From Promicromonospora umidemergens (GTDB lineage: Bacteria > Actinomycetota > Actinomycetes > Actinomycetales > Cellulomonadaceae), in the NCBI RefSeq assembly GCF_024171995.1, contig NZ_JAMTCT010000001.1, positions 62,001-126,000 of the forward strand: a stretch of 64,000 nucleotides of DNA, in the 5' to 3' direction. Below, in pieces: positions 1,098 to 57,619 of this stretch (positions are counted from its first letter, which is position 1; every line of letters starts with the position of its first letter). Below the pieces are notes generated by a model. It saw only the letters and a list, made by a program, of their open reading frames with translations. It ran no database searches and was not told where the DNA came from. The position numbers and the translations under genes were made by a program.

Positions 1098-1249
1098 GCT
1101 CTCTCCTTTGTTCTGACGGTCCTGCTCTGACAGGTCTTGCTCCAGCAGGTCTTGAGCGGCGCCGGATCTGGGCACGCCGGATCTGGGCATGCCGGTTCAG
1201 GGCATGCGGTATCGAGGCAGGTCGGATCGGGTTACGACGGCAGAGGGCG

Positions 1250-1909
1250 TCAGGTCGCCCGGAGCGGCTCCACAGGGACGTGCAGCACGGCGCGCCCCTC
1301 GTCGTCCTCGACAACCAGGGCGGTGATCGTGTCCCGGGGCATGGCGGTGGTCATCCGGGCGGAGACCGGCGCGTCGTCCGGCGCGCGCACGCTGCCGCCT
1401 GGCGCCTGGACGCCGTCGGCGTTGACCGCCATCAGGTGGTACGTCCGGCCGGGCACGAGCCCCGAGAGGGACACGGGGATCTCGGTCCCCCACGGGTGGC
1501 TGACCATGGGGTCGTCACGCACCAGCGCGACGGCCGAGACGGGCGGTGGTGCCTGGTAGGTGGCGAGAGGGACGGCCACGGCGACGGACGCGGCGACGGC
1601 GGCTGCGGTCAGCGCGGCGGCGATCCGACGCCGGCGCCGTGGGCGTGCGGCCTCCTGGGCAGGGACCACGGCCCGGCGGATCCGATCACCGAGCTCGGCC
1701 GGAGGCCGTTCGGTCATCGCGTCCGGTGCCGGACGGGTCCACGCCGGTTCGGCTCTGCGCAGCGTCCGGACGACGTCGCCGAGCTCGGCCGCCTCGCGGG
1801 CACAGTCCTGGCATCGTTCGAGGTGCCGGGACAGGCCCTCCGGCATCGGTATCCCCAGCGACAGGCACTCGGCGAGTACCGGGCGCAGGCGTGCGCAGTC
1901 TTCGTTCAT
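1250..1909 (-). CDS. Zinc-type anti-sigma factor, single-pass membrane protein
   Basis: 219 residues. The N-terminus carries the ZAS-type zinc motif H-x3-C-x2-C (SRHLERCQDC, about residues 24-33), which in this family holds the cognate ECF sigma factor at the membrane. An RRRRR stop and a hydrophobic helix (IAAALTAAAVAASVAVAVPL) follow near residue 98. The extracytoplasmic C-terminal half resembles the usual anti-sigma C-terminal domain (SLSGLVPGRTYHLMAV). The ATG at 1909 overlaps the sigma stop codon as ATGA, implying translational coupling. A 152-bp gap with short tandem repeats of CGCCGGATCTGGGCA follows before the propeller gene. The inducing signal is unknown. Confidence 0.88.
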   Translation of the reverse strand: MNEDCARLRPVLAECLSLGIPMPEGLSRHLERCQDCAREAAELGDVVRTLRRAEPAWTRPAPDAMTERPPAELGDRIRRAVVPAQEAARPRRRRRIAAALTAAAVAASVAVAVPLATYQAPPPVSAVALVRDDPMVSHPWGTEIPVSLSGLVPGRTYHLMAVNADGVQAPGGSVRAPDDAPVSARMTTAMPRDTITALVVEDDEGRAVLHVPVEPLRAT

Positions 1910-2493
1910 GAGGCCAGCCACCCGTTCTCCTCGAGGACCATCCGCAGCGTCCGCATGCCGTAGTACAGCCGGCTGCGCATGGTGGATGCCGGCACTCCCA
2001 GCTCGTGCGCCAGCTCGGCGCAGGTGCGGCCGCCGTAGTGCACCCCGACCACCGCCTCGCGGTGGTCCGGGCTCAGCCGCCGTAACGCCTCCGCGAGCTG
2101 GATCTGCTCGAGCAGCTGGTCGACGGGGTCGAGCACCGCGGGCGGCTCGGACAGGTCGTCCCACGACGAGCCGCCCGGCCCCCAGCGCACCCGCCGTCGC
2201 CGGAGCGCGTCGACGATCCCGTTCCGCGTGATGGCGAACAGCCAGGTGCGCAGGCTGCCCCGGTGTGCCTCGAAGCCGCGCGGCGACCGCCACGCACTGA
2301 CGAACGCCTCTTGCACCACGTCCTCGGCGAGCTGTCGGTCGTCCAGCGCTCTGGACGCGAACCCGAGCAGCTCCCCGCCGTACAGGTCGTAGGCGGCCTG
2401 GACCTCCCGCTCGGTCCGCAGCCCGGCGGGCTCCGAACCGTCCGGCGCGGGCCGTCGGCCCGATCGCCGCAGACGGCCACCGTGCACAGCCAC
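1906..2493 (-). CDS. ECF-family RNA polymerase sigma factor
   Basis: About 195 residues with the two ECF regions. Region 2 spans roughly residues 30-95 (YDLYGGELLGFASRAL, AEDVVQEAFVSAWRS). Region 4 spans roughly 130-180 (LSPDHREAVVGVHYGGRT, LGVPASTMRSRLYYGMRTLR), a helix-turn-helix for the -35 element. The frame also opens at a GTG at 2499. GGGAGG at 2503-2508 lies only 3 nt from that codon but 9 nt from the GTG at 2493, so 2493 is preferred. It overlaps the zinc anti-sigma gene by 4 bp, the standard arrangement for a sigma and its inhibitor. Such sigmas usually autoregulate, but I could not define the promoter. Confidence 0.9.
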   Translation of the reverse strand: MAVHGGRLRRSGRRPAPDGSEPAGLRTEREVQAAYDLYGGELLGFASRALDDRQLAEDVVQEAFVSAWRSPRGFEAHRGSLRTWLFAITRNGIVDALRRRRVRWGPGGSSWDDLSEPPAVLDPVDQLLEQIQLAEALRRLSPDHREAVVGVHYGGRTCAELAHELGVPASTMRSRLYYGMRTLRMVLEENGWLAS

Positions 2494-2647
2494 GGTCACT
2501 CACCTCCCGTTCCGAGTCGCACTGCTGCTCCCGCTCCTGGAGAGGCTCCAGGAGGCGATGTGCTCATCAGGGGATACGCGGCGGACACCTGGTGTGTTGA
2601 ACGGTGTGACCTGGTTCACAGCGAGCGGGCGGCTGCCCGCCCAGGCG

Positions 2648-3625
2648 CTACCGCGATGCCACGTTGCGCAGCTCACCGCCGTCGCGCCAGGCCGTGAGCT
2701 GCTCGGCCAGGAAGCGGGCCGCGCCCCGCGGCCGCCCGCCCGCCACGTGCGGCGTCAGGATCAGGTTCGGGACGTCCCACAGCGGGGAGTCCGCAGGCAA
2801 GGGCTCGGTCTCCATCACGTCGAGCGCCGCACCCGCGAGCCGTCCGGACCGCAGCGCGTCCGCGAGAGCGACCTCGTCGACGGTCGCTCCCCGGCCGACG
2901 TTGACGAACCGCGCCGTCGGCGGCAGCAGGCCCAGCAGGCGGTCGCCGAGCACGTGCCGGGTGGCGGGACCGGCGGGCAGCAGCGAGATGAGCAGGTCGG
3001 TCTCGGTCAGCAGCGCATCCAGACCGTCGGGCGCCACCACCGGGTACCCGGAGCGCTGACCCGCGCGCGAGGCGACGCCCGTGACCTGCGCACCGAGCGC
3101 GGTCAGCAGCGGTGCCAGCCGCAGGGCGATCGACCCGAAGCCCCAGATGGTCACGCGCGCCCCGTCGAGCGTGTACTCGCGGCCGGTGACCGGGTCGGCC
3201 TGCGCGAACGCGATCTCCTTTGCCCAGTGGTGCTCCCGCTGCGCGGCCAGCGTCGCGTCGATTCGCCGGACCGACGCGAGGATCAGCGCGAGAGCGTGCT
3301 CGGTGACGGTGTCGTCGTGCAGGGACTGGCCGGACGAGATGACGACGTCGGGGCCGAACCCGGAGCGCAGCGCGACGTCCGGGCCGGCCGAGAGGGTCTG
3401 CACCCAGCGCAGGCCGGTCAGCCGGCGGGCGGTGTCGGAGAGCACCCTTGGCGGGTTGGACCAGGTGACCAGCACCTCGGCGTCGGCGTGCTCCTCGGGG
3501 ATCGGGTCGTTCATCGCGTACGTGACGACGACGTCGGTGCCGCCGGGAGCGAAGGAGGCTCCGGCGTCGGGCAGGAGGGACGGGAAGTCGAGGTCGAAGG
3601 GCACGTCCGGTACGAGGATCTTCAC
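2648..3625 (-). CDS. D-isomer-specific 2-hydroxyacid dehydrogenase family protein
   Basis: 325 residues. Members reduce 2-oxoacids or oxidise D-2-hydroxyacids with NAD(P)H in the cytosol. The nucleotide-binding motif is at about residues 160-175 (VTIWGFGSIALRLAPLL), with the third glycine replaced by alanine (GxGxxA), as in several members. Catalytic landmarks are in order: FVNVGRGATVDE (Arg), ALDVMETEPLP (Glu) and LTPHVAGG (His). The start is GTG at 3625, since no other in-frame start gives a complete N-terminal lobe. It stands alone, separated by a strong hairpin from the NlpC/P60 gene. Substrate cannot be assigned; ghrA/serA-type names would be guesses. Confidence 0.88.
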   Translation of the reverse strand: MKILVPDVPFDLDFPSLLPDAGASFAPGGTDVVVTYAMNDPIPEEHADAEVLVTWSNPPRVLSDTARRLTGLRWVQTLSAGPDVALRSGFGPDVVISSGQSLHDDTVTEHALALILASVRRIDATLAAQREHHWAKEIAFAQADPVTGREYTLDGARVTIWGFGSIALRLAPLLTALGAQVTGVASRAGQRSGYPVVAPDGLDALLTETDLLISLLPAGPATRHVLGDRLLGLLPPTARFVNVGRGATVDEVALADALRSGRLAGAALDVMETEPLPADSPLWDVPNLILTPHVAGGRPRGAARFLAEQLTAWRDGGELRNVASR

Positions 3626-3657
3626 GCCCGGGACGTTACCGGACCGGCCCGACGGAC

Positions 3658-3707
3658 GAGCACGGGGTGTGCCGCGCCGGAAGTCCGGCGGGACACACCC
3701 CGTGCTC
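3658..3707 (-). terminator. Strong hairpin downstream of NlpC/P60 gene
   Basis: Perfect 14-bp arms GAGCACGGGGTGTG (3658-3671) and CACACCCCGTGCTC (3694-3707). The 22-nt spacer holds a second hairpin, CGCCGG-AAGT-CCGGCG. It sits 26 bp after the stop of the minus-strand NlpC/P60 gene. There is no long T-run, as is common in high-GC actinobacteria. Confidence 0.7.
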
Positions 3708-3733
3708 GATCTGGAGGGTGACGCGAGGAGCGG

Positions 3734-4642
3734 TCAGCCCGTCACGCGGATGAACACCGCGTTGTTCTGCCACATCTCGCCGTACTGCACGGGAGTGCCC
3801 TGCTGCTGGGCCTCCACGACCATGCCGTTGCCCGCGTAGAGGGCGACGTGGCCCGACGTCCACACGATGTCGCCCGGCTGGGCCTCGGCGGCGGAGACCT
3901 GGTACCCGACGGTCGACATCGCGCTCGAGCTGTGCGGGAGGCTGACCCCGAGCTGACCGTAGACGTACTGGATGAGCCCGGAGCAGTCGAAGCCGCTGGG
4001 GGAGGCTCCGCCCCACACGTAGGGCACGCCCACGTACTCGAGGGCAAGGTTGACGGCCTGCTGGCCGAGGCCGGACGCGTCGGCGACGGTCTCGACGACG
4101 GCTTCCGCCTCGGCCGCTACGGCCTCCTCCGCTTCCGCGGCGGCGGCGGCCTCTGCTGCGGCGGCCGCCTCAGCCTCTGCCTTCGCCTCGGCCTCGGCCT
4201 TGGCGCGCGCCTCGGCCTCTGCCTTCTCCTTGGCCTCGGCGATGCCGGCCTCGGTCTCGGCGTACGGCGTCACGGACACGCGCCCGCGCTCGGCCCAGAA
4301 GTCGGCGTCCTGCGTGACCTTGACCTTGGTGACGAGGTTCTCGGTGAAGCCGGCCCGAGTCGTGGAGTCGACGGTGTTGCTGACCGGCGTCGCGCCGGCG
4401 AGCGTGGTCTGGGTGTGCGTCTCGGCGGGCGCGGTGTGGGCGGTCTGGGTGAAGACCGACGCCAGCATGCCGGACGTGACGACCGCGATGGCGCCGGTTC
4501 GCGCGGCGTTCTCTGCGGCGGTCTGGGTCAGTGCGGTGAAGGGGGTGAGTGCGGGGCCGTCGGCGCGGTGCCTGCCCCGGCTGCTGGAACGGTTTGCCTG
4601 GTCGTCCGCCCAGTCATGGGTACGGTCGGTGAGTACGGTCAC
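3734..4642 (-). CDS. Secreted NlpC/P60 peptidoglycan hydrolase
   Basis: 302 residues. The C-terminal ~110 residues are an NlpC/P60 domain: ALEYVGVPYVWGGASP, catalytic Cys in FDCSGLIQYVY, catalytic His in SGHVALYAGNG, and a Glu (MVVEA) where the third polar residue is expected. It should cut peptide stems in peptidoglycan outside the membrane. The N-terminus is long and polar before a weak hydrophobic stretch (TGAIAVVTSGMLASVF), an atypical export signal. Residues ~135-185 are an Ala/Glu/Lys-rich coiled-coil-like linker. The GTG start at 4642 has AGGAG 7 nt upstream. A c-di-AMP riboswitch fills the leader and its closing stem touches the Shine-Dalgarno sequence, as seen for cell-wall hydrolases in actinobacteria. 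Confidence 0.92.
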   Translation of the reverse strand: MTVLTDRTHDWADDQANRSSSRGRHRADGPALTPFTALTQTAAENAARTGAIAVVTSGMLASVFTQTAHTAPAETHTQTTLAGATPVSNTVDSTTRAGFTENLVTKVKVTQDADFWAERGRVSVTPYAETEAGIAEAKEKAEAEARAKAEAEAKAEAEAAAAAEAAAAAEAEEAVAAEAEAVVETVADASGLGQQAVNLALEYVGVPYVWGGASPSGFDCSGLIQYVYGQLGVSLPHSSSAMSTVGYQVSAAEAQPGDIVWTSGHVALYAGNGMVVEAQQQGTPVQYGEMWQNNAVFIRVTG

Positions 4643-4654
4643 CAGTGATCTCCT

Positions 4655-4815
4655 CGGACGCCTACGAAGTGAGCTGTCGGGTTCGGATGGGGAGAGCGAT
4701 CACCCGGCCTCACAAGAAGGCTTCACCCCAAGGACACTCACGTGCCCGCTTACTTGGTTCCCCCGCCCCTGTCACGTTCTAGCTGCTCAGATCCGGTGAC
4801 AGGGTTCGGCGTCCG
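4655..4815 (-). ncRNA. c-di-AMP (ydaO/yuaA) riboswitch
   Basis: Reading the minus strand, the closing stem is CGGACGCC/GGCGTCCG formed by 4808-4815 and 4655-4662, a perfect 8 bp. Inside are the conserved ydaO blocks: GCCGAACCCTG, GGGGCGGGGGAACCAAG, CTTGGGGTGAAGCC, and near the 3' side CCGAACCCGACAGCTCAC then TTCGTAGGCG. The Shine-Dalgarno GAGGAG (4650-4655) begins at the last base of the closing stem, so ligand-dependent folding could mask the ribosome site. The family senses c-di-AMP and normally shuts off cell-wall or osmotic genes when it is abundant. The actual mode of control is inference. Confidence 0.92.
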
Positions 4816-4949
4816 GGCCTGGACCTCCCCGTTGCTGGAGCGGCGAGATTGACCGTACCTGCCCGTCGAGCAATTGTCACGATTAGGTCACATACCAACT
4901 TGTGATGGAACCTCCCTGGTAATCAGTGCCCCATGGGACTATGACGTGC

Positions 4950-6515
4950 ATGCCTGATTCCACGCGTTCCCGGTACGACGTCGTCGTCGTCGGCGGAGGT
5001 CACAACGGCCTCACCGCGGCGGCCTACGCGGCCCGCGGCGGCCGCTCCGTCCTGGTCCTCGAACGAGCGGACCACGTGGGCGGCGCCGCCGTCTCGGCCC
5101 GGCCGTTCGCCGGCGTGGACGCGCGGCTGTCGCGCTACTCCTACCTCGTCTCGCTCCTGCCGCGCCGGGTGGTCGAGGAGCTCGGCCTCCCCATCACCCT
5201 CAAGCGCCGGCGCTGGTCCTCCTACACGCCGGTTGGCGAGGGCGGCCTCCTCGTCGACAGCCAGGACGCCGCCGCTACGCGCACCGCGTTCCGCCGCCTG
5301 ACGGGCTCGGACGCCGACTTCGAGGCGTGGGGGCGCTTCTACGCCATGACCGCGGAGGTGGCCCGCCGGCTGGCGCCGACGCTCACCGAGCCGCTGCTCC
5401 CACGCTCGGAGGTCCGGGACCGGGTGGTCGACGGCGTGGGGGAGGACGCCTGGCGCGCCCTCTTCGAGGAGCCCCTCGGCGACGTGCTGCGCCGAACCTT
5501 CGCCGACGACGTCGTGCGCGGCGTCGCGGCCACCGACGGCCTGATCGGCACGTTCGCCGACGTCGACGAGCCGTCCCTGCGGCAGAACCGCTGCTTCCTC
5601 TACCACGTCATCGGCAACGGGACCGGCGACTGGGACGTCCCGGTGGGTGGCATGGGCGCCGTCTCGGGCGCCCTGCACGACGCCGCCGTGGCCGCCGGCG
5701 CGACGATCGTCACCTCGGCGACCGTCACCGCCGTCGACCCCGGGTCCTCGGGCGCGGAGGTCGCCTGGACCGACGCCGACGGGCGCGCCAGGGGCGTAGC
5801 GGCCGGGCACGTGCTCGCCGGGTGCGCCCCGGCCGAGCTGGAGCGGCTGCTCGGCGGCGAGCCCCCGGCGCCCGGCCCCGAGGGCGCGCAGCTCAAGGTG
5901 AACATGCTGCTCACGCGCCTGCCCCGGCTGCGCGACGACGTCGACCCCGTCGCCGCGTTCAGCGGGACCCTGCACGTCAACGAGTCCCTGACCCAGCTCG
6001 AGGACGCGCACGCGCAGGCCGCCGCCGGGCGCATCCCCGACCTGCCGCCGAGCGAGATCTACTGCCACACCCTGACCGACCGGACGATCCTCGGCCCGGC
6101 CCTCGCAGGGACCGACGCGCAGACCATCACGCTGTTCGGGCTGCACATGCCGGCGCGGCTCTTCCGTACGGATCCCGACGGCGCTCGCGACCGGGCGCTC
6201 CGAGCCACGCTCGCGTCGCTGGACTCCGTGCTGGCGGAGCCCATCGAGGACGTGCTCGCGCTCGACGCCGACGGTGCCCCCTGCCTCGAGGTGCGCACCC
6301 CGGTCGACCTGGAGGGCGACGTGGGGCTGCCGGGCGGGCACATCTTCCACCGTGACCTCAGCTGGCCCTTCGCCGAGTCCGACGCCGACGCCGGGCGCTG
6401 GGGCGTCGAGACCGAGCACCCGCGTGTCCTGCTGGCAGGAGCTGGCGCGCGCCGCGGCGGGGGCGTCAGCGGCATCCCGGGCCGGGCGGCGGCCATGGCT
6501 GTGCTGTCGGCCTAG
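4950..6515 (+). CDS. FAD-dependent oxidoreductase, phytoene-dehydrogenase/PYROXD2-like
   Basis: About 521 residues. The N-terminus has the dinucleotide-binding fold YDVVVVGGGHNGLTAAAYAA, then the second FAD motif VLERADHVGGAA. The C-terminus has the second FAD-contact segment RVLLAGAGARRGGGVSGIPG. This layout is that of the carotenoid dehydrogenase/PYROXD2-like amine oxidase superfamily (COG1233). No other carotenoid gene is nearby, so a pigment role is not supported. Candidate starts are GTG 4926, ATG 4941 and ATG 4950. The last puts the FAD motif ~9 residues from the start and could be leaderless from TATGAC at 4940. The gene is divergent from the riboswitch-controlled hydrolase. Confidence 0.85.
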   Translation: MPDSTRSRYDVVVVGGGHNGLTAAAYAARGGRSVLVLERADHVGGAAVSARPFAGVDARLSRYSYLVSLLPRRVVEELGLPITLKRRRWSSYTPVGEGGLLVDSQDAAATRTAFRRLTGSDADFEAWGRFYAMTAEVARRLAPTLTEPLLPRSEVRDRVVDGVGEDAWRALFEEPLGDVLRRTFADDVVRGVAATDGLIGTFADVDEPSLRQNRCFLYHVIGNGTGDWDVPVGGMGAVSGALHDAAVAAGATIVTSATVTAVDPGSSGAEVAWTDADGRARGVAAGHVLAGCAPAELERLLGGEPPAPGPEGAQLKVNMLLTRLPRLRDDVDPVAAFSGTLHVNESLTQLEDAHAQAAAGRIPDLPPSEIYCHTLTDRTILGPALAGTDAQTITLFGLHMPARLFRTDPDGARDRALRATLASLDSVLAEPIEDVLALDADGAPCLEVRTPVDLEGDVGLPGGHIFHRDLSWPFAESDADAGRWGVETEHPRVLLAGAGARRGGGVSGIPGRAAAMAVLSA

Positions 6516-6524
6516 GGCCGGCGG

Positions 6525-6581
6525 ACGAGAACGGGGTTGTGTTCGTCATCGGCGCCTGGAGGAACACAACCCCGTTCTCGT
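6525..6581. terminator. Bidirectional hairpin between convergent genes
   Basis: A perfect 20-bp inverted repeat: arm ACGAGAACGGGGTTGTGTTC at 6525-6544 and its complement at 6562-6581, loop 17 nt. It starts 9 bp after the oxidoreductase stop and ends 4 bp before the cydC stop on the other strand, so it can end both transcripts. Confidence 0.75.
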
Positions 6582-6585
6582 TCGG

Positions 6586-8529
6586 TCAGCGTTCCTGCGA
6601 GGTCGACCAGGCGTACGTCGCGTCGGTGGTGCGGAGGTGCTCGTGCCTGCCCCGGGCCGTGACCGTGGCCGGGACGCCGTGCGCGGCGCCGGCATCGTGC
6701 CCCAGCACCACCACCTCGTCGACCGCAGCCAGCGGTGTGAGGCGGTGCGTCGCCAGCAGCACCGCCCGGCCGGTCGCGCGCGCGTGCGCCGCCAGCGTGC
6801 GCACCAGAGCATCCGCGGTAGCGCCGTCCAGGTGCTCGGCGGGCTCGTCCACGAGCAGGACCTGTGCGGGGCTCAGCAGCGCGCGAGCGACCAGCAGACG
6901 ACGACGCTCGCCGCCCGAGACCGCGGCTGCGTCCGTGCCCACCACCGTGTCGAGCCCCTCGGGAAGCGCGGCCAGCCACGCACCCAGCCCGACGGCGTCG
7001 AGCGCGGTCCGGGCCTCGGCGGCCGTGACGTCGCCGCGCGCCACCCGCAGGTTCTCCAGCACCGTGGTGTCGAACAGATGCCCGTCCTCGGCGACGAACA
7101 GCGTGGCCGAAGGGCTCGGCGTGGTCGGCAGAACGTCAGATGATCGGTAGCCCGGAATGCCGACCTCCTGACGTTCTGCCGACCACGCGGACACGGTTCC
7201 ACCTACTGGCGGGATCAGCCCGGCGGCGGTCATCAGCAGCGTCGTCTTCCCGGCGCCGGACGGCCCGGCCAGTGCCACGACCGAGCCCTGGCGCAGTGCG
7301 AGGGACACCCCCTCGACGGCGGTACGCGGCCAGCCGGCGGCGTCGGGCCAGCCGGCGGCGACGTGGTCGAGCACGAGCAGCGCGCCGCCCGCCTCCTGTG
7401 CTGTGCCGGACGCGCCGGTCCGGCAGGACGTGCCCTCCTCCCCGGACGGGTCAGGTGCGCCGGCCCGCTCCGCCGCACCCGGCACCCGCGCGACCCGCGC
7501 GACCCGCGCGACCCGCGCGACCCGCGCAGCCGACATCGGGTCGGACGCGGGCAGCAGCTCGAGCAGCCGCCGCGCCGCCTCCCTCGACCGCAGGAGCTGG
7601 ACCGCGGCGGCCGGGAGCCCAGCGGTCGCCTCGAACACCGCGAGCGGAGTCAGCACGACCACGGACAGCGCCTCCACGGACAGCGACCCCGACATGGCAA
7701 CCGGGATCCCGAGCGTGAGCGAGGCGAGCACCGCGAGACCCTGCGCCAGCGCCCCCAGCGCGGCGGCCAGGCCGGAGGTGCGGGCGCCGTCGTCGGCGAT
7801 GGCGGACAGGCGCGCGTCGGCCGCGTCAAGAGCCGCCAGCCGCGCGCCGAACCGGCCGGAGACCCGCAGCGGAGCCGACTCCTCGAGGACCTCGAGGGAC
7901 AGTGCTGTCACCTCGCCCCGGACCGCGGCACCCCGCGCCTCGGTTCGCGCCGCCGCCCGCGCCGCGAGCCACGGCGTCACGATCCCGGCGAGCACCAGGC
8001 ACAGCGCCAGCGCCACACCCGCCGCCGGCAGCAGCACGCCCAGCAGGATCACCGAACCGAGGGACGTCACCACCGCGACCCCCGCCGGTACGAGCGCGCG
8101 AACCACCACGTCGCCGACGTCGTCCACGTCCTGGCCGATCCGCGCCAGGAGCTCGCCGCGCCGCACGGTGACCGGGCGGTCGTCCGCGGCGAGGCGGTCG
8201 TACAGGTTGGCGCGGAGGGCGGCCATGCCACGCAGCGCGACGTCGTGGGAGGCGAGGCGCTCGCAGTAACGCAGCACACCGCGCCCGATCCCGAACGCCC
8301 GCACCGCCACCACGGCGACCGACAGGGTGAGCACCGGCGGCATCTGGTACGCCCGGGCGACGAGCCAGGCCGCCACGGCCGCGAGCCCGATCGCACAGGC
8401 CAGGGCCAGGACGCCGAACCCGATCGCCGCCGCTACCTTGACCGGCCGGACTTCCAGCAGCGGCAGGACGCGGCGCAACGGGTCGGAGCGCCCGCCCGCG
8501 GCCAGGTGCTGCGTCGAGGTGGTCATCAT
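6586..8529 (-). CDS. cydC: Thiol reductant ABC exporter subunit CydC
   Basis: 647 residues with an N-terminal membrane domain (about 1-300) and a C-terminal ATPase. Motifs: Walker A GPSGAGKTTL, E-loop FVAEDGHLFDTTVLENLRVARGD, signature VSGGERRRLLVARALL, Walker B VLLVDEPAEHLD and H-loop LLATHRLTPL. CydDC exports cysteine and glutathione and is needed to assemble cytochrome bd. The start at 8529 overlaps the cydD stop as ATGA. Two oddities: a 9-bp tandem repeat at 7484-7528 encoding ARV units (residues ~333-349), and a 66-bp palindromic repeat at 7121-7186, read in frame as residues ~448-470 between Walker A and the E-loop. All ATPase motifs remain, so the protein may still work. Confidence 0.93.
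   Translation of the reverse strand: MMTTSTQHLAAGGRSDPLRRVLPLLEVRPVKVAAAIGFGVLALACAIGLAAVAAWLVARAYQMPPVLTLSVAVVAVRAFGIGRGVLRYCERLASHDVALRGMAALRANLYDRLAADDRPVTVRRGELLARIGQDVDDVGDVVVRALVPAGVAVVTSLGSVILLGVLLPAAGVALALCLVLAGIVTPWLAARAAARTEARGAAVRGEVTALSLEVLEESAPLRVSGRFGARLAALDAADARLSAIADDGARTSGLAAALGALAQGLAVLASLTLGIPVAMSGSLSVEALSVVVLTPLAVFEATAGLPAAAVQLLRSREAARRLLELLPASDPMSAARVARVARVARVARVPGAAERAGAPDPSGEEGTSCRTGASGTAQEAGGALLVLDHVAAGWPDAAGWPRTAVEGVSLALRQGSVVALAGPSGAGKTTLLMTAAGLIPPVGGTVSAWSAERQEVGIPGYRSSDVLPTTPSPSATLFVAEDGHLFDTTVLENLRVARGDVTAAEARTALDAVGLGAWLAALPEGLDTVVGTDAAAVSGGERRRLLVARALLSPAQVLLVDEPAEHLDGATADALVRTLAAHARATGRAVLLATHRLTPLAAVDEVVVLGHDAGAAHGVPATVTARGRHEHLRTTDATYAWSTSQER
7121..7186. repeat. 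66-bp palindromic repeat element inside cydC (copy A)
   Basis: Perfect 19-bp terminal inverted arms (GTGGTCGGCAGAACGTCAG at 7121-7139 and its complement at 7168-7186) flank a 28-bp partly palindromic centre. A second 66-bp copy lies at 19888-19953; the two agree at 55 of 66 positions by my count. In cydC it is read as 22 codons without a stop. Confidence 0.85.
7484..7528 (-). repeat. Five 9-bp tandem units in cydC
   Basis: Unit ACCCGCGCG on the plus strand, repeated four times with a fifth copy ending in A. It encodes a repeating Ala-Arg-Val linker between the membrane and ATPase domains of CydC. Because the unit is 9 bp, copy-number change would keep the frame. Confidence 0.85.
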
Positions 8530-10379
8530 GCCTCCCGGTTCGTCGTGGAACGCCCAGCGGGTGCCGGCTCGGGGCAGCTCCCGGGGCCCGTCGCAGGTTC
8601 CGGCGCCGAGCGGACGTCGATGACCTGGTCCGCGAGCCCCAGCAGCGACGCCCGGTGCGCGACGACGAGCACGGTGCGACCGGAGTCCCGCCAGGCGCGA
8701 ACGGTGTCGAGCACGCCCTGCTCGCCGCGCGCGTCGAGGTGCGCCGTCGGCTCGTCGAGGATCACCAGTGGCTTGGTCGCGGCGTCGTCGAGCAGGGCTG
8801 ACGTGAGCGCCACGCGCTGCCGCTGCCCCACGGACAGCCCCACGCCGCCGAGCCCGACGTGCGTGTCCCAGCCGTCGGGCAGGGCGCCGACGACGGAATC
8901 GAGCCCGGTCAGCCGGGCGGCCTCGGCGAGGCTTCGTGCGGCACCGGGAGACGCACCGTCCAGGACGACCTCGCGCAGCCGCCCGGGCGGGAGAGCGGGC
9001 CGCTGCGGAACCCAGGTCAGCGCCGCCCACCACGCGTCCCGCTCGTCGGCCGACAGGTCGGCGAGGTCACGGAGCGCACCGCCGGCCGGCACCAGCCCGA
9101 CCCGCCCGGCGTCCGGCGTCAGCAGCCCTAGAGCCACGAGCACGGCCGTCGACTTGCCGGACCCGCTCGGCCCGCGCAGCGCGACGACCCGCCCACTCCC
9201 GGCCCCGAGCGGAATCCGCGCGGTCAGCCCAGCGGGAGCGACAACCCCACGCCCGACGGCCCGCACGGAAACCCCCTCCAGCACAAGCTCCCCACTCGTG
9301 ACCCTCCCACCCAGGCCCTCTGCGGATGCGGGGACGTCCTCATCCTCCGACCGGACGGAAGGAAGGAGCGCGAACGCCCGCGACGCGGCAGCAACCCCGT
9401 CCACCGAGGCATGGAACTCCGCCCCCACCCTGCGCAGCGGCAGGTACACCTCGGGGGCGAGCACGAGCACCGCGATCGCGGGCTGCAGCTCCATGGCGCC
9501 CTCGACGAGCCGCAGCCCTACCCCGACCGCGATGATCGCCACCGACAGCGTCGTGAGCAGCTCGAGGACCATCGAGGAGAGGAACGCGACCCGCAGCGTC
9601 CCCATGGTCGCCCTGCGGGAGGCGTCACCGAGCGCGCGCACCCGCTCGCCCGGGCCGAACGACCGCCCGAAGGCCCGCAGCGTCGGCAGCCCGGCGACCA
9701 GGTCGAGCACCTGGGTGCCCAGCCGTTCCACCGTGGCGAGGCGCCGCTCGGACGTCCCTGCCGTCAGCCGCCCGACGAGCACCATGAACACGGGCACGAG
9801 CGGCAGGGTCACGATCAGGATCACCGCCGAGACCCAGTCCAGCCCCAGCACGACGACGACCAGCGCGGGCGTGAGCAGCGCCGTCAGCACGAGCTGCGGC
9901 ACGTAGCGCACGAGGTACGGCTCGAGCGCGTCGAGCCCGCGAGTCGCGAGGGTCGCGACCTCGGCCTCCGGGCTCGCGCCGTTCCCGCCGCCCGACGCCG
10001 GAGCGCCGGCCGGGGGACCGCCCTCCGCAGCTTCGACGGCCGTCGTCCCGGCCGCCCGCGGGCCGCGCAGCGCCCAGGCCTCGACCACCGCGCGGCGGAG
10101 CTCGGCGATCGTCCGGGCGGCGGCCCGCAGCGCGTACCGTTCCTGCGCCCACGCGATACCCGCCCGCCCGGCGATCACGAGCGCCAGCCCCGCGAAGGGC
10201 CAGGCCAGCGCCGGCCCGGACGTGGCGTCTCCGCGCACCACCGGCGCCAGCAGGGCCGCGATCAGCAGGGCCTGCGCCACGATGAGCGCGGCGGCGGCTA
10301 CCCCCAGCCCTACCGTCAGTGCCACGTACCAGCGGGCCGCGCGGACCTGCTGCAGCAGCCGTGGGTCGATGGGCTTCAT
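8526..10379 (-). CDS. cydD: Thiol reductant ABC exporter subunit CydD
   Basis: 617 residues, partner of CydC in the inner-membrane heterodimer that exports cysteine/glutathione for cytochrome bd maturation. The membrane domain (residues ~1-320) includes WYVALTVGLGVAAAALIVAQ and AWPFAGLALVIAGRAGIAW. A Gly/Ala/Pro-rich stretch near residues 115-145 is an unusual low-complexity insertion. The ATPase has Walker A GPSGSGKST, signature LSVGQRQRVALTSALL and Walker B VILDEPTAHLD. ATG 10379 is preceded by AGGA at a good distance. It follows cydB by 22 bp and overlaps cydC by 4 bp, so cydA-B-D-C is one transcription unit. Confidence 0.93.
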   Translation of the reverse strand: MKPIDPRLLQQVRAARWYVALTVGLGVAAAALIVAQALLIAALLAPVVRGDATSGPALAWPFAGLALVIAGRAGIAWAQERYALRAAARTIAELRRAVVEAWALRGPRAAGTTAVEAAEGGPPAGAPASGGGNGASPEAEVATLATRGLDALEPYLVRYVPQLVLTALLTPALVVVVLGLDWVSAVILIVTLPLVPVFMVLVGRLTAGTSERRLATVERLGTQVLDLVAGLPTLRAFGRSFGPGERVRALGDASRRATMGTLRVAFLSSMVLELLTTLSVAIIAVGVGLRLVEGAMELQPAIAVLVLAPEVYLPLRRVGAEFHASVDGVAAASRAFALLPSVRSEDEDVPASAEGLGGRVTSGELVLEGVSVRAVGRGVVAPAGLTARIPLGAGSGRVVALRGPSGSGKSTAVLVALGLLTPDAGRVGLVPAGGALRDLADLSADERDAWWAALTWVPQRPALPPGRLREVVLDGASPGAARSLAEAARLTGLDSVVGALPDGWDTHVGLGGVGLSVGQRQRVALTSALLDDAATKPLVILDEPTAHLDARGEQGVLDTVRAWRDSGRTVLVVAHRASLLGLADQVIDVRSAPEPATGPGSCPEPAPAGRSTTNREA

Positions 10380-10401
10380 CCGTTCCTGCTCCCGTTGTCC
10401 T

Positions 10402-11451
10402 TCAGAACGCCGCGTCCTTGATCTTCTTCCAGGTCAGCCCGGCCGGTGCGGGAATGTGGTCCACGGTCAGCCGGCGCCGGAAGACCCAGTACGTCCACCC
10501 CTGGTACAGGATCACCATGGGAGTAAGCGCCACGGCGACCCACGTCAGGACGGTCAGTGTGTACGGCGTCGAGGACGCCTCGGCGATGCTGAGCGAGCTG
10601 CCCCCGCCCAGACCCGGCAGCACGTCCGGGAACATGGACCCGAAGATCAGCACCATCGCGGCGATGATCGTCGCCGCGGAGAGCCCGAACGCGTAGCCCT
10701 CGCGTCCGGCACGGTTGGTCCGCAGGACGCCGACCAGGGCAAGGGCGCCGGCGATCACGACCACCCAGGTCCAGGCGGGCGAGAACGCGACCTGCGTCCA
10801 GACCGCCCAGACCCCGGCAACGGCCAGGGCGGCGAGCGTCAGCACCCCGGCGAACCGGCGAGCCCGCACCCGGATCGCGCCGTCGGTCTTGAGGGCCACG
10901 AACACTGTGCCGTGCAGCAGGAAGAGCACGAGCGTCGACAGGCCCCCGAGCAGCGCGAACGGGTTGAAGAGCGCCGCGAGCCCGCCCACGTACTGGTGTG
11001 CGTCGTCGAGCTGGACGCCGCGGACCAGGTTCGCGAACATGACGCCCCACAGGATGGCTGGTACCCAGGAACCGACCTGGATCGCGACGTCACAGCGGCG
11101 CGCCCAGACGGCGTCGGAGATCTTGCCGCGGTACTCGAAGGCGACGCCGCGCACGATGAGCGCCACCAGGATGGCGAGCAGCGGCAGGTAGAAGCCGGAG
11201 AACAGGGTGGCGTACCACTCGGGGAACGCCGCGAAGGTGGCGCCTGCCGCCGTGATCAGCCACACCTCGTTGCCGTCCCAGACCGGGCCGATGCTGTTCA
11301 CCAGCACCCGTCGCTCCTTCTCCCGGTGCGCGGCGTCCCCGCGGGGCAGCAGCGACATCAGCATCCCGACGCCGAAGTCGAAGCCCTCGAGCACGAAGTA
11401 CCCGGTCCACAGAACCGCGATGATGACGAACCACACGATGGCGAGGTCCAC
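10402..11451 (-). CDS. cydB: Cytochrome bd ubiquinol oxidase subunit II
   Basis: 349 residues, multi-pass. The start reads DLAIVWFVIIAVLWTGYFVL followed by EGFDFGVG, the conserved CydB opening, with later segments such as PVWDGNEVWL and GWTYWVFRRR. It is the membrane partner of CydA in the high-affinity terminal oxidase that reduces O2 to water. GTG 11451 is chosen over GTG 11457 because AAGGA lies 7 nt upstream of the former and only 1 nt from the latter. A 59-bp gap separates it from cydA and contains no strong terminator. Confidence 0.95.
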   Translation of the reverse strand: MDLAIVWFVIIAVLWTGYFVLEGFDFGVGMLMSLLPRGDAAHREKERRVLVNSIGPVWDGNEVWLITAAGATFAAFPEWYATLFSGFYLPLLAILVALIVRGVAFEYRGKISDAVWARRCDVAIQVGSWVPAILWGVMFANLVRGVQLDDAHQYVGGLAALFNPFALLGGLSTLVLFLLHGTVFVALKTDGAIRVRARRFAGVLTLAALAVAGVWAVWTQVAFSPAWTWVVVIAGALALVGVLRTNRAGREGYAFGLSAATIIAAMVLIFGSMFPDVLPGLGGGSSLSIAEASSTPYTLTVLTWVAVALTPMVILYQGWTYWVFRRRLTVDHIPAPAGLTWKKIKDAAF

Positions 11452-11510
11452 GGTCACGTCCTTATCTCTGGCAGGTCGGTCAGGTCTGGTGGGGGGGAGG
11501 TCGGCTGTGC

Positions 11511-13007
11511 TCAGTAGGCGAAGGAGAGCGGGCGGTCGGTCTCGTCGTCGGCGGCCTCCGGCGACTCGTCGCGCACCGTCGAGGGCACGCCCTCGACCGC
11601 GTACCGGTGGATGAGCCGGTACCAGATCACGCCGAGCACGCCGTAGAGCAGGGTGAACACGATCATCGACGTGAGGATCATGCCGGGGCTGACGACGGTG
11701 GAGACGCCCTGCGTCGTGAGCAGCCGGATCTGGTCGATCCCCGTGGGGTTCGGGGCGACCACCCAGGGCTGGCGGCCCACCTCCGTGAAGATCCAGCCGA
11801 ACGACGAGGCGAGGAACGGTGTGGGGATCGCGGCGATCGCTATGCGGGCGAACCAGGGGTTGTCGCTGACGCGGCCGCCACGGGTGAACCACAGGGCGGC
11901 CAGCGCGAGCAGCGCGGATCCGGCGGCGAACCCGATCATGAGCCGGAAGCTCCAGTACGTGACGGCGAGGTTGGGCGTGTACGAGATCGGGTTCCCGGCC
12001 TCGTCCGTCTCGCCGAACCGCTCGGAGTACTCCTTCTGCACGTCGTCGACACCGGGCAGGTAGCTGTCCTCGCCCGAGAACTTGCCGGTGCCGAGGTAGC
12101 TCGACAGGCCAGGCACCTCGAGGATGTGCCGCACGCCTTCGCACGAGTTGGACAGGTCACCGATGGTGAGGATCGAGAACGGGGCCGCCTCCTCGCCCGT
12201 GCACAGCGCCTCGGCCGATGCCATCTTCCCGGGCTGCTGCTCGAACATCAGCTTTCCCTGGACGTCGCCCGTCAGCGCGACGCCGGCGCCGGAGACCAGC
12301 ATGACCATGGTGCCGAGGACCACGGCGGGGCGGTAGACGTTCCGGGCGAGCTCGACGGACTCGGGCCGCCTGGTCCGGACCAGGCGCACCATCCACCAGG
12401 CGGCGATCCCCGCCACGAAGGTCCCGGCCGTCAGGAAGGCAGCGGCCACCGCGTGCGGGAAGGCCGCCCACAGGGTGTTGTTGCCGAGGATCGCCCAGAT
12501 CGACTCCATCTCGGCGCGGCCGGTCTCCGGGTTGTACCGGGCGCCCACGGGGTGCTGCATCCACGAGTTGGCGGCCAGGATGAAGAACGCCGACAGGTTC
12601 ACCGCGACGGCGACGGCCCAGATGGACGCCAGGTGGACCCGCTTGCTCAGCCGGTCCCAGCCGAAGATCCACAGGCCGAGGAAGACCGACTCGATGAAGA
12701 ACGCGGCGAGGGCCTCCATCGCGAGCGGTGCGCCGAACACGTCGCCGACGAACCGGGAGTACTCGCTCCAGTTCATCCCGAACTGGAACTCCTGCACGAT
12801 GCCGGTGACGACGCCGAGCGCGAAGTTGATCAGGAAGAGCTTGCCGAAGAACTTGGTGAGCCTGAGCCACCGTTCGTTCCCTGTGCGGACCCAGGCGGTC
12901 TGCATCACGGCCACCAGGGGTGCGAGGCCGATCGTGAGCGGCACGAAGATGAAGTGATAGACGGTAGTGATGCCGAACTGCCAGCGTGCCAGGTCGAGAG
13001 CTTCCAC
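11511..13007 (-). CDS. cydA: Cytochrome bd ubiquinol oxidase subunit I
   Basis: 498 residues. Heme-bearing subunit of cytochrome bd in the cytoplasmic membrane. His18 in TTVYHFIFVPLTIGL matches the heme b595-side ligand; FPHAVAAAF and GRQPWVV (the invariant loop before the C-terminal helices) are also present. The Q-loop region is short, as in non-proteobacterial bd enzymes. GTG 13007 has AGGAG 6 nt upstream. It is the first gene of cydA-B-D-C and lies behind a perfect Rex operator at 13100-13119, so expression should rise when NADH/NAD+ is high under low oxygen (family knowledge). Confidence 0.96.
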   Translation of the reverse strand: MEALDLARWQFGITTVYHFIFVPLTIGLAPLVAVMQTAWVRTGNERWLRLTKFFGKLFLINFALGVVTGIVQEFQFGMNWSEYSRFVGDVFGAPLAMEALAAFFIESVFLGLWIFGWDRLSKRVHLASIWAVAVAVNLSAFFILAANSWMQHPVGARYNPETGRAEMESIWAILGNNTLWAAFPHAVAAAFLTAGTFVAGIAAWWMVRLVRTRRPESVELARNVYRPAVVLGTMVMLVSGAGVALTGDVQGKLMFEQQPGKMASAEALCTGEEAAPFSILTIGDLSNSCEGVRHILEVPGLSSYLGTGKFSGEDSYLPGVDDVQKEYSERFGETDEAGNPISYTPNLAVTYWSFRLMIGFAAGSALLALAALWFTRGGRVSDNPWFARIAIAAIPTPFLASSFGWIFTEVGRQPWVVAPNPTGIDQIRLLTTQGVSTVVSPGMILTSMIVFTLLYGVLGVIWYRLIHRYAVEGVPSTVRDESPEAADDETDRPLSFAY

Positions 13008-13099
13008 TCCGGGCTCCTGAGGTCTCTCCGAACGGCTCCGCCCTCGGGGCGCGAGACCTGATCCAGCAGGTCGCGTGCTGCCGCGGGGCTCGCCCGTCG

Positions 13100-13119
13100 C
13101 TTGTGAATGTCTTCACAAG
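13100..13119 (-). promoter_or_regulatory. Rex operator upstream of cydABDC
   Basis: A perfect palindrome, TTGTGAA-TGTC-TTCACAA, at 13101-13118 (flanking C/G also pair). It matches the Rex consensus TTGTGAA-N4-TTCACAA. It lies ~93 bp upstream of cydA, just downstream of a TACAGT -10-like hexamer on the minus strand, a position that would block initiation. Rex itself is not in the window. Confidence 0.88.
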
Positions 13120-13418
13120 CTACTGTACACGGCGTCAGGCGCTCGCAGAGCAGGCCTCGTCTCTTGTGCGATACTGGACGAACCCGCGTGGGCCCACATC
13201 CCCTGCGCGGCCTGCAGAGTCCAACACTGCCCGCGATCCGCACGCGGTGCCGCTGTCACGACAGAACGTGGCCGCAGGCGTCCGCGAAGACCGTGGGAAC
13301 AGGGCCGCAGCCGAGACTTCCGCCCGGTGTATCGCTTCGCCGCGATGCATAGCCGGACGACCGACCGCCTGGTGGTCCGCATGGTGTGGAGCGGACTCCG
13401 GCTACAGGAGCACCTCAC

Positions 13419-16400
13419 GTGACGCCTTCCAGCACCACCGGTTCGACCATCGGGTCACAGGATGATCACGACGCACCTGAGGCGAACGCCCAGGTCACCA
13501 CTGGTGGGGAGGCTCCGGCAGATCCGACGCCGGCCAAGCGTCCGCGTCGTCGGGCCACCAGGGCCGTCGTCTCGACGGCCAGCGTCGAGCCCATCGTCGT
13601 CGGGTCGTCCGACGTGTCCGAGACCCCGGCCGATGCCCACCCCGTGACCACGGGCGGCACCGCCGTCGTGGCGACCTCCGCGACCGCCGAGCCGGCCGCC
13701 AAGCGCCCCCGTCGCCGGGCCGTACGTGGCGTCTCCTCGCCCACGGCGCCGGCTCCCGCCCCGGCCGAGCCGACGGCGGCCGAGCCGGTCGTCGCCGAGC
13801 CCGCCGCGGAGGCCGAGCCGGTCCCGAACGAGACGGAGATCACTGCCGAGACCGCACCGGTCGCCGAGCCCGAGACGCCCGAGACTGCCGTGGCCCCCGA
13901 GCCCGAGGCTGCCGTCGTGCAGCCTGTCGAGGAGCTCGCGCCGACCGGCATCGTGCTGCCGGAACCCGTGGCGACGCCCGCTGACGCACCGGCTCACGAG
14001 ATCGCGAGCCTCGACGACATCGTCCTGCCCGGCGGCCCGGCCACGGAGCCCGAGAAGACCGCTCCGAAGCGTCGTAGCCGCAAGAAGGTGGAGCCGGTCG
14101 CCGAGCCCGTCGCGGAGACGGCTCCCAAGCGCGCCCGGTCGCGGCGCAAGCCCGTCGCGGACGAGCCGGTCGGCGAGCCGATGGCCGGGACCGTGCCGGT
14201 CGAGGACGCCCCCGTCGCAGAGGCTCCCGTCGAGCAGGCGCCGGCTGCCGAGGCTCCGGTCGAGTCCGCCCCGAGGGCCCGGGCACGTCGCAGCCGGCGT
14301 CCCGCGTCGGAGCCGAACCCGGCACCCGCTGCCGAGGTGCCTGCGGTGCAGACGCCCGCTGTCCCGGCACCCGCTGCCGAGGCGCCCGCTGTCCAGACGC
14401 CCGCCGCCGAGGCACCGGCACAGCCGGTGGTGTCGCCCGTGGGAACCGCGTCGGGTACGCGTGCTCCGCGCCTTGCCACGACGGCGCTGCTCTTCCAGGC
14501 GCCGGACGAGTCGGCGGCCCGCCGCTCGCGGCGCGCGCAGGCTCCTGCCGGACCGCCGCGTGCGCAGGACCTGACGCCGCAGTTCGCCCGTCCGGTCGCT
14601 CGCCCCGTCGAGTCGGCGCCCGAGGCGCCCGCGCCGCGCGCGGCCGAGCCCGTCGCGGAGCGGCCGGCCGAGGCAAGGACGGAGGCCGCGACCGAGTCGA
14701 GGCCGGAGCCCCAGGCCGAGGCCGAGGCCCCGGCCGAACCGAGGGCGCGCCGGTCCGGATCTCGCCGGGCAGTACGCCGTACGGGACCGAGTGCCGAGCC
14801 GGCCGTCCGGCTCGAGGCCCAGGACGTCACGCAGAGCGCGCAGGCCGAGCCGGCGCCGGACGCTGCAGCGGAGACGCCCGTGCGTGCGGAGAGCGCGGCG
14901 GAGTTCGTCGCGGCCGAGCTGAGCGAGGACGACGCCGCCGCCGTGGACGAGGTCGGCGCCATCGAGGAGGAGCTGGCTGCTGAGGGCGTAGCGCTCGAAG
15001 AGCTCGCTCCGGCGGACTTCGAGGAGTACGACGACGATGACGAGGTGCGCCCGTCGCGCCGCCGTCGTCGTCGGGGTGGCCGGGGTCGCCGTGGCGGTCG
15101 CGCGAACCGCTCGGACGACGGGGACGACTCGGCGGACGAGGAGCAGGACGACGACGCCGAGGATGACGCACAGTCGTCCGCCGAGGACGAGAACGACCAG
15201 GACTCGGCGCAGGACACCGGTGACGGTGACGGTGAGGACGAGGGTGGCAGCCGCCGTCGTCGCCGTCGGCGCCGGGGTACGCGTGGGGAGCGCGCCGAGG
15301 CGGCCGCCGGCCGCTCGGGCCGTTCCGACGAGGTCACCGCGCTCAAGGGGTCGACGCGCCTCGAGGCGAAGCGTCAGCGCCGCCGCGAGGGCCGCGACCA
15401 CGGCCGTCGTCGCCAGATCATCACCGAGGCCGAGTTCCTGGCCCGCCGCGAGTCCGTGCAGCGGTCGATGATCGTGCGCGAGAAGGACGGCCGCACGCAG
15501 ATCGCGGTGCTGGAGGACGGCGTGCTCGTCGAGCACTACGTCTCGCAGCAGTCGCAGGCGTCGATGGCCGGCAACGTCTACCTTGGCCGGGTCCAGAACG
15601 TGCTGCCCTCCATGGAGGCCGCGTTCATCGACGTCGGCAAGGGCCGCAATGCCGTGCTGTACGCCGGTGAGGTCAACTGGGACGCCGCGGGGCTCGAGGG
15701 CCAGCCGCGCCGGATCGAGCAGGCGCTGAAGTCGGGCGACTCGGTCCTGGTGCAGGTCACGAAGGACCCGATCGGTCACAAGGGCGCCCGGCTCACGAGC
15801 CAGGTCACGCTCGCCGGCCGGTACCTGGTGTTCGTGCCGGGCGGGGGCATGACCGGGATCAGCCGCAAGCTGCCCGACACGGAGCGGTCGCGCCTCAAGA
15901 AGATCCTCCGCGAGGTCGTGCCCGAGGGCGCAGGCGTCATCGTGCGTACCGCCGCCGAGGGGGCGAGCGAGGACGAGCTGCGCGCCGACGTCGACCGCCT
16001 GCAGGGGCAGTGGGAAGCCATCCAGGTCAAGTCGAAGAAGGCCTCCGCGCCCGCCCTGCTGCAGGGTGAGCCGGACATGGCGATCCGCGTGGTCCGCGAC
16101 ATCTTCAACGACGACTTCTCGTCGCTCGTGGTGCAGGGCTCCGGTGCGTGGGACGAGATCGCTGCCTACGTCGAGGAGCTCGCGCCCGACCTGCGCGAGC
16201 GCGTGTCCAAGTGGGCCGAGAACACCGACGTGTTCCACGTGCACCGTGTGGACGAGCAGCTCGCCAAGGGCATGGACCGCAAGGTCTGGCTGCCCTCCGG
16301 CGGCTCGCTGGTCATCGACCGCACCGAGGCGATGACCGTCGTGGACGTCAACACCGGCAAGTTCACCGGCGTCGGCGGAACGCTCGAGGAGACCGTGACG

Positions 16401-17135: not shown

Positions 17136-17187
17136 GCAGAAGAAGGGATTCTGGGCGAGGCTGTTCGGCCTCTGACCTGATCCGCAC

Positions 17188-17224
17188 GAGGGTCGCCACC
17201 GCAAGGTGGCGGCCCTCGTTTTTC
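17188..17224 (+). terminator. Intrinsic terminator after rne
   Basis: 13-bp stem GAGGGTCGCCACC (17188-17200) / GGTGGCGGCCCTC (17205-17217), one G-U pair, GCAA tetraloop, then GTTTTTC. A classical rho-independent terminator. Confidence 0.9.
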
Positions 17225-17276
17225 GTGCCCGGACGTCTTGGCCGGGAATCTCCCTTGCGGCTCGGCCATGTTCTGT

Positions 17277-17300
17277 GGTTCATTAGTGGAGTGATGAACC
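17277..17300 (+). promoter_or_regulatory. Operator-like palindrome before acyltransferase gene
   Basis: Arms GGTTCAT (17277-17283) and ATGAACC (17294-17300), with further partial symmetry inside (TAGT/AGTG). It lies ~36 bp upstream of the chosen start. A GntR- or MarR-type site is possible; no matching regulator is nearby. Confidence 0.45.
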
Positions 17301-17335
17301 GACGAAGCAACGAACCGCAAGACCTGGAGACCGAG

Positions 17336-18484: not shown

Positions 18485-18489
18485 GCGTC

Positions 18490-18518
18490 CGGCGCGCTCC
18501 GCTCCACGGAGCGCGCCG
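18490..18518. terminator. Hairpin between convergent genes
   Basis: Perfect 12-bp stem CGGCGCGCTCCG (18490-18501) / CGGAGCGCGCCG (18507-18518), 5-nt loop, located between the acyltransferase stop and the stop of the minus-strand hydrolase. Confidence 0.7.
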
Positions 18519-18539
18519 CCGCCCGGAGCGGGGCGGGTG

Positions 18540-19202: not shown

Positions 19203-19237
19203 GTGCGGCAACCTAACGGAATGCTTGACTGGCAGCC

Positions 19238-19891
19238 ATGAAAGCCGGTCTGGGCGCTGGGCGCCTCGAAGTCATCGCAGGCCCCATGTTCGCGGGCAAG
19301 TCCGAGGAGCTGCTGCGGCGGGTGCGGCGCGCCAGGGTCGCCGGGCGCGGGGTGCTGGTGGTGAGCCACGCGCTGGACGCCCGGCGGGGCGTCGGCCGGG
19401 TGAGCTCGCACTCGGGGCAGGGCGTGCCGTCGCAGACGGTGTCGGACGCCGCAGACATCCCCGCCCTGCTCGAACCCGGCACGGGAGCCGGTCGGGGCGC
19501 CGGCGGGGGCACCAGCAGGGACGCCGGTGCCGGGACAGAGCTCGTCGCCATCGACGAGGCGCAGTTCTTCGGCGCCGGTCTCGTCCCCGTGGTCTCGGAC
19601 CTCGCGGGCCGCGGCCTCGTGGTGATCGTGGCGGGGCTGTCGGTCACGTTCGACGCGCAGCCCTTCGCGCCGCTGCCCGAGCTGATGGCACTCGCGGAGT
19701 CGGTGGAGAAGCTCACGGCCGTGTGCTCCGTGTGCGGAGCGGACGCCGCGTTCCACGTCCGGGTCGCCGGGGCGCCACCGGTGCCCGACGCCGGTGGTGC
19801 CGGTCCGGGTGGCGCGCTCGTCCCGGTCGCCGCACACGTGGGCGGGTCGGAGTCGTACGAGGCGCGCTGCCGGAGGCACAAGGACGCGTGA
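19238..19891 (+). CDS. tdk: Thymidine kinase
   Basis: 217 residues. Phosphorylates thymidine with ATP in nucleotide salvage. P-loop GPMFAGKSEELLRR is at residues ~15-28, Walker B AIDEAQFF at ~104-111, and the lasso/zinc region has CSVCG and the final CRRH (Cys-x2-Cys and Cys-x2-His). Two Gly/Ala-rich insertions distinguish it from typical TK1 proteins: residues ~80-100 (GTGAGRGAGGGTSRDAGAG) and ~180-195. The stop codon TGA lies inside the first bases of the 66-bp repeat at 19888, so the last codon context was set by that element. No clear Shine-Dalgarno. Confidence 0.92.
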   Translation: MKAGLGAGRLEVIAGPMFAGKSEELLRRVRRARVAGRGVLVVSHALDARRGVGRVSSHSGQGVPSQTVSDAADIPALLEPGTGAGRGAGGGTSRDAGAGTELVAIDEAQFFGAGLVPVVSDLAGRGLVVIVAGLSVTFDAQPFAPLPELMALAESVEKLTAVCSVCGADAAFHVRVAGAPPVPDAGGAGPGGALVPVAAHVGGSESYEARCRRHKDA

Positions 19892-19953
19892 TCGGCAAGA
19901 CGTCAGGTGATCGGCAACCCGGGCTGCCGATCACCTGACGTTCTACCGACCAC
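19888..19953. repeat. 66-bp palindromic repeat element (copy B)
   Basis: Same length and layout as the element inside cydC (7121-7186). The inner arms here are perfect over 17 bp (ACGTCAGGTGATCGGCA and its complement). The outer arm GTGATCGGCAAGACGTCAG pairs imperfectly with CTGACGTTCTACCGACCAC. It overlaps the tdk stop codon and could act as the tdk terminator. Confidence 0.85.
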
Positions 19954-19985
19954 CCAGGCCCCCTGCCCGCGACCTCGCCACGGGG

Positions 19986-26531: not shown

Positions 26532-26547
26532 CGCCCCGCCCCGACGT

Positions 26548-26574
26548 GTCGGACGTAGGACCTGTACGTCTGAC
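26548..26574. terminator. Weak hairpin after obgE
   Basis: 10-bp stem GTCGGACGTA (26548-26557) / TACGTCTGAC (26565-26574) with one G-U pair and a 7-nt loop; no T-run. It could partly separate obgE from proB. Confidence 0.4.
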
Positions 26575-26617
26575 GCGTCCGGGCGGGCTCTGACCCGTCG
26601 GCTGCCCGGACCGTGGA

Positions 26618-44130: not shown

Positions 44131-44151
44131 CGCGCGAGCGCACGTGCCGGG

Positions 44152-57610: not shown

Positions 57611-57619
57611 GGCCTCTCA

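Follow-up and report, generated by a model that had tools for sequence, protein, structure and literature searches.

How can a protein-coding gene hold a 66-bp palindrome without losing its reading frame, and what is such an element outside of genes? The question is raised by cydC of Promicromonospora umidemergens (genome G000), in a window of 64,000 nucleotides, i.e., the whole stretch of DNA that was analysed. The original prediction described in this gene a 66-bp element with perfect 19-bp terminal inverted arms and a second copy matching at 55 of 66 bases (83% over the full length). Upon re-reading of the sequence, the coordinates, the arms, and the second copy were all borne out (Table 1). 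The cydC copy is a near-palindrome, and the segment that encodes the peptide listed for it starts at the third position of codon 448 and stops at the second position of codon 470. The predicted addition of 22 codons with no stop also held, the frame reading through between Walker A and EDGHLF. The gene that ends inside the second copy is, from its motifs, presumably thymidine-kinase-like.

Table 1. Features of the window that bear on the 66-bp element
Feature	Position	Strand	Remarks
66-bp palindromic element in cydC	7121..7186		minus strand encodes WSAERQEVGIPGYRSSDVLPTT
Inverted repeat around the cydC copy, full extent 76 bp	7116..7191		palindrome scan
cydC, thiol reductant ABC exporter subunit	6586..8529	-	TIGR02868 above cut-off; the element does not break the frame
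Second copy, between converging genes	19888..19953		the upstream gene stops at bases 2-4 (TGA) of the copy
Gene upstream of the second copy, ending inside it	19238..19891	+	open reading frame
Other long palindrome	6522..6584		sits exactly in the gap where the upstream gene and cydC converge

Thirteen strong palindromes were found in the window and none in one first-order Markov shuffle of it, the RNA-fold z of the cydC copy is -9.7, and a covariance model finds matches throughout the genome (see below); together, these results place the palindromic element far beyond chance. The palindrome at 6522-6584 has no family link with the element by shared 11-mers. It is one of several long palindromes that lie 1-62 bp past a stop codon according to our own gene caller, the others being at 3657-3708, 26535-26587, 35955-36015, 44146-44184, 54639-54694, 57617-57666, and 63285-63342; those at 57617-57666 and 54639-54694 resemble, by eye, palindromes at other gene ends in congeners.

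The insert in cydC is variably present. Among 13 Promicromonospora genomes, the site is readable in 12, nine of which carry the insert and three of which (G004, P. citrea, and P. thailandica) do not. In other genera, 14 of 18 cydC loci were read, and none of the 14 holds an insert at that site (five were also scored with a base matrix, and the rest were judged by eye). The comparison of CydC with its relatives therefore bore out the original prediction: orthologues without the segment exist and so do many further copies of the element, and neither a segment common to all orthologues nor a similarity confined to chance was encountered. Judged from these alignments, the 22 codons are a true insertion. 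Carriers also differ among themselves: the AC04 (G002) insert is shortened in frame, and in P. panici one arm is partly duplicated, likewise in frame. In a tree built from cydA, cydB, cydD, and a portion of cydC (11 rows, 1786 columns; P. citrea and P. panici, whose cydC lies at contig ends, were left out, and cydC of G009 is unreadable), P. thailandica branches outside the carriers and G004, which lacks the insert, among them; the well-supported branches force at least two changes. The tree of CydC alone is poorly resolved and forces one change only. Most simply, the insert would have been gained once and then lost once in G004; alternatively, it may have been exchanged by recombination.

In the structure model of CydC, pLDDT falls below 50 at the N-terminus, at residues 342-379 (a linker), and at residues 452-473. 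The insert, at approx. residues 449-470, overlaps the last of these segments, a loop whose low pLDDT may partly reflect the small number of aligned sequences. Changes at the three codon positions number 136/107/99 in the insert (8 orthologues) and 67/76/336 in a flanking control of 60 cydC codons starting from EDGH (7 orthologues, G001 missing). Because there is no bias towards the third codon position and the loop is of low confidence, the CydC peptide resembles tolerated filler, with no visible selection on its amino acids; as a measure of neutrality the codon-position test is not clean, since the DNA motif itself constrains those codons. Just past residue ~333, before the ATPase part, the CydC linker holds a ARVARVARVARV run.

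CydC is not the only protein that contains such a segment. The element occurs in frame a second time in a gene with a LUD domain (PF02589), which we take to be lutC. The gene is present in 12 of 13 congeners, seven with the insert and five without, and the insert is absent from both outgroups read (G014 and G018). The third gene with an in-frame copy is mshB-like; the copy was seen in G000, G003, and G010 and, as judged by homology and an open peptide, in G012; the G010 protein matches TIGR03445 below the cut-off. In G000, the mshB-like gene (L027:2100-2837) shows an apparent frame break upstream of the element, which could be a sequencing error or decay. Moreover, cydC of Antribacter gilvus, from a sister genus, carries a copy in another frame, with one mispair by eye, in the linker that joins the membrane part to the ATPase part, a position that corresponds to the linker with the run mentioned above. 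Each of these copies adds 22 residues to its protein, and those in cydC, lutC, and the mshB-like gene of Promicromonospora are read in the same frame as (W/R)SA-like peptides. Changes per codon position are 72/24/39 in the lutC insert (7 orthologues) and 24/15/21 in the mshB-like insert (4 orthologues). It had been proposed that such insertions are harmless because their length is a multiple of three. That explanation is insufficient alone: among 64 copies in G000, one frame is open in 46 on the plus strand and one in 49 on the minus strand, whereas the other two frames are open in 6-20, and the three Promicromonospora genes all use the commonly open frame.

The 64 copies come from a genome-wide search, also proposed with the original prediction, in which at least 64 clear copies were found. 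The covariance model, built with its alignment from 39 of the first 40 copies (a 67-base copy was left out), gave 130 strand-matches in G000 at E <= 1, corresponding to 64 clear places and one weak fragment of 34 nt; the number is a lower bound, as 150 of 10,427 first-look candidates were scored. With the same model, the family is found at E <= 0.001 in 68 of 150 genomes of Cellulomonadaceae and in 15 of 25 genera. By plain DNA similarity it appears nearly restricted to the genus, being detected in 12 of 39 genomes, i.e., G000, 10 of 12 congeners, and one genome of a sister genus. To our knowledge, ordinary terminators do not form a single conserved sequence family across genera; unlike them, the element does. 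No Rfam family matched above its gathering score between positions 6000 and 21000 of the window, phage and plasmid searches with one copy as the query gave no match at E <= 0.001, and viral contigs contained no exact match to one 25-base pattern.

The main home of the element is the 3' ends of genes. According to our own codon-usage gene caller, 26 of the 64 copies lie between convergent genes, 30 between tandem genes, six between divergent genes, and two inside genes; once the mshB-like copy is moved from the convergent class, the numbers are 25, 30, 6, and 3. Element-free gaps of at least 40 bp, drawn from the window and from the loci around copies, are distributed differently (15 convergent, 109 tandem, 48 divergent; p = 9e-9 against 26/30/6, with the mshB-like copy counted as convergent). 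Of the 56 convergent or tandem copies, 48 lie within -15 to +35 bp of a stop codon. In tandem gaps, the median copy lies 16 bp from the stop codon and 89 bp from the start of the following gene; in convergent gaps, the median for the stop is 18 bp. In seven cases, including the copy at 19888, a TGA or TAG of the element itself ends the gene. In the broad sense of dispersed palindromes lying mostly downstream of genes, the family is REP-like. Its placement also resembles that of a terminator, though there is no T-run, and a function in termination would follow from position. A scan for hairpins with a T-run over positions 1-20000 of the window returned six sites (2.3 expected) and flagged neither element, and the six copies called divergent count against reading the element as a 3'-end hairpin. 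The idea that the element as a rule inserts into loops of pre-existing terminator hairpins was considered and rejected, the energy of the joined flanks being -19.3 versus -19.0 +/- 0.39 for shuffled partners. In a lone case, L039:2528-2617 (G000 C17:4539), a copy lies exactly between perfect inverted flanks of 12 bp, as if in a hairpin loop.

The pairing of the two arms is maintained while their sequence changes. In the 39 aligned copies, 17 of 31 pairs have changed on both sides and nine are invariable, as is TCG/GTC; 65 cells have both sides changed versus 30.1 in shuffles. The nine fixed pairs and the invariant TCG/GTC exceed the needs of a plain terminator and hint at a protein-binding or mobilising site. 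Among orthologous intergenic copies, 142 double changes were counted (47.5 when permuted), 111 of them from one pair to another; the corresponding values for genic copies, with the shortened G002 insert (12 bases shorter) left out here as in the mispair and codon counts, are 114, 50.6, and 45. Six of 53 orthologous copies, all intergenic, fit the reference better when flipped. The 111 pair-to-pair changes stand because a flip alters mispairs and not Watson-Crick pairs; it may add double changes only. Genic copies contain more mispairs than intergenic copies (mean 6.7, n = 19, versus 4.3, n = 56; p = 6e-5, a generous value since rows are related), which fits a relaxed constraint on the hairpin within genes. 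The contrast is not clean, as 42 of the 91 double changes in cydC are still pair-to-pair, compared with 0 of 17 in lutC and 3 of 6 in the mshB-like gene. In 32 copies, G-U and A-C pairs on the transcribed strand number 52 to 40 (p = 0.25), so RNA is not indicated as the selected form.

Both gain and loss of copies are apparent from comparisons of related genomes. Sixteen of the 64 copies served as queries, and 15 of them led to orthologous sites in five congeners; of the 68 matching places, 60 were read: 22 hold the element, 12 a different palindrome, and 26 neither (two of the latter contain runs of N). The threshold for a different palindrome was self-set, and two of the 22 element copies, which have indels, were reassigned by pattern. 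In G004, at L240 and L247, palindromes at the ends of orthologous genes are interrupted midway by runs of N, which suggests masking or assembly breaks at these hairpins. G003 and G012 form a close pair: each of the 10 G003 loci read has the element in G012 as well, and the element is present in G003 at 7 of the 10 G012 loci; at one of the remaining three, G003 keeps an arm relic only. By eye, 19-bp units have been gained or lost at several loci of this pair, and the one clear empty counterpart at L271 is a deletion derivative with an arm relic.

The original prediction of a small mobile or REP-like element therefore stands in so far as the repeat is dispersed and variably inserted; its mobile part fared less well. 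A linked transposase of the RAYT type was not found: Y1_Tnp has no match in G000 or any of the 13 Promicromonospora genomes and one match in the 150 genomes of the family, in searches whose controls matched in 10/14 and 5/14 genomes. Target-site duplications were likewise not seen (at k = 2, nine versus 5.2 shuffled, with a shuffled maximum of 11; none above chance at k >= 3). Given the missing Y1 transposase and target-site duplication, active transposition is not supported, and the sequences do not support a RAYT-type mode of spread. A MITE, i.e., a non-autonomous transposon mobilised in trans by a transposase, would also be dispersed, wholly inverted, and polymorphic in presence among congeners, but these same two negative results weigh against it, and no larger element bounded by such ends occurs among the listed arm matches with 0-1 mismatch, all but one of which lie inside element copies; we regard this origin as unlikely. 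The exception, at C29:59539 (L188 ~12640), is a solitary half copy that lacks the other arm.

Several known systems share features with the element. Rickettsia RPEs are described as palindromic repeats of ~150 bp that lie in frame inside unrelated protein genes and leave them unbroken (PMC10969869). Compared by description, the Promicromonospora element likewise sits in frame within unrelated genes with intact frames, and in cydC and lutC, as in the RPE definition, it is also missing from some orthologues, the mshB-like gene being an in-frame copy only. It differs in its 66-bp length, its actinobacterial host, and the location of nearly all copies outside genes. GTAG/CGTC REPs, according to the main text of Di Nocera 2013 (PMC3733652), are short palindromes just downstream of converging or co-directional genes; some are intragenic and encode 20 to 30 residues, and their termini sometimes supply a stop codon. 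The placement at gene ends, the intragenic copies, and the element-borne stop codons are all similar here. In contrast to those REPs, the whole unit is paired in the consensus, with GTAG-/CGTC-like letters within the stem and no unpaired end tag; the stem is ~31 bp, versus 8-9 bp in CGTC-type REPs, and, unlike that of the GTAG type, the host has no RAYT. Neither Actinobacteria nor Cellulomonas is matched in that main text. The enterobacterial repeat units RU-1/2/3, reported as open-frame intergenic repeats that are also fused into genes (PMC2759123), are 103-168 bp long, MITE-like, and found in other hosts. Intrinsic terminators without a U-tract are reported to have their hairpin mostly 20-50 bases from the stop codon (PMC8355165), and the hairpin of the element is similarly close; coding palindromes have been described in nematomorph mitochondria (PMC6649704). 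Titles and abstract openings in a literature with few subscription journals yielded no description of the 66-bp family. Taken together, the element appears to act at 3' ends as a REP does and within genes as an RPE does, but no end tag, RAYT, or target duplication was found.

We consider it probable that this is a REP/RPE-like palindromic family whose copies serve as 3'-end hairpins outside genes and, on rare occasions, are captured in frame inside them as tolerated hitch-hikers. Outside genes, the element would form a hairpin at the 3' end of RNA, acting as a terminator and/or a 3' stability element, and between converging genes it could be used from both strands. A copy inside a gene would persist if it chanced to offer an open frame and fell in a flexible loop of the protein, and the ribosomes translating it would prevent the hairpin from stopping transcription. 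Confidence in this reading is slightly lowered by the T-run scan that flagged neither element and by a weak palindrome-swap control: another palindrome occupies 12 of 38 element-free orthologous sites, versus 20 of the 124 element-free gaps of at least 40 bp, tandem or convergent, in G000 (odds ratio 2.4, p = 0.06). The same control lowers the odds of a more tentative idea, which has some modest chance of being right, namely that gene 3' ends in these bacteria carry interchangeable palindromes, with several unrelated hairpin families taking each other's place at orthologous gene ends by means other than a transposase, such as copying templated by the hairpin. The palindromes would then be swappable, semi-selfish terminators that are occasionally copied into open reading frames.

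It is improbable that the palindrome has no function and is kept near-perfect only by template switching during replication (quasi-palindrome correction), a mechanism outlined in PMC8794818. Such correction would account for the excess of double changes in cydC too (91 versus 39.4 permuted), but not for the contrast between no pair-to-pair change among 17 in lutC and 111 among 142 in intergenic copies, and it leaves the sequence-level invariance and the 3'-end position unexplained. Quite unlikely, in our view, is that the element is bound as DNA by a sequence-specific protein of the nucleoid or of replication, selection having placed it outside genes. A TCGGYA-like motif is repeated at 19-bp spacing in both arms and kept in Antribacter, and the gain or loss of 19-bp modules seen by eye would suit such a site; the tight placement at stop codons and the rarity in divergent gaps are better explained by a role in the transcript.

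With these findings, the Rickettsia type of palindrome within proteins extends to a high-GC actinobacterium; four separate in-frame landings are seen, two of them in cydC. The family poses the puzzle of how a hairpin conserved in sequence has spread across a bacterial family without a RAYT. It also provides a natural contrast, the same hairpin occurring under translation and at 3' ends, by which the role of compensatory changes, whether made by selection or by template-switch repair, may be tested.
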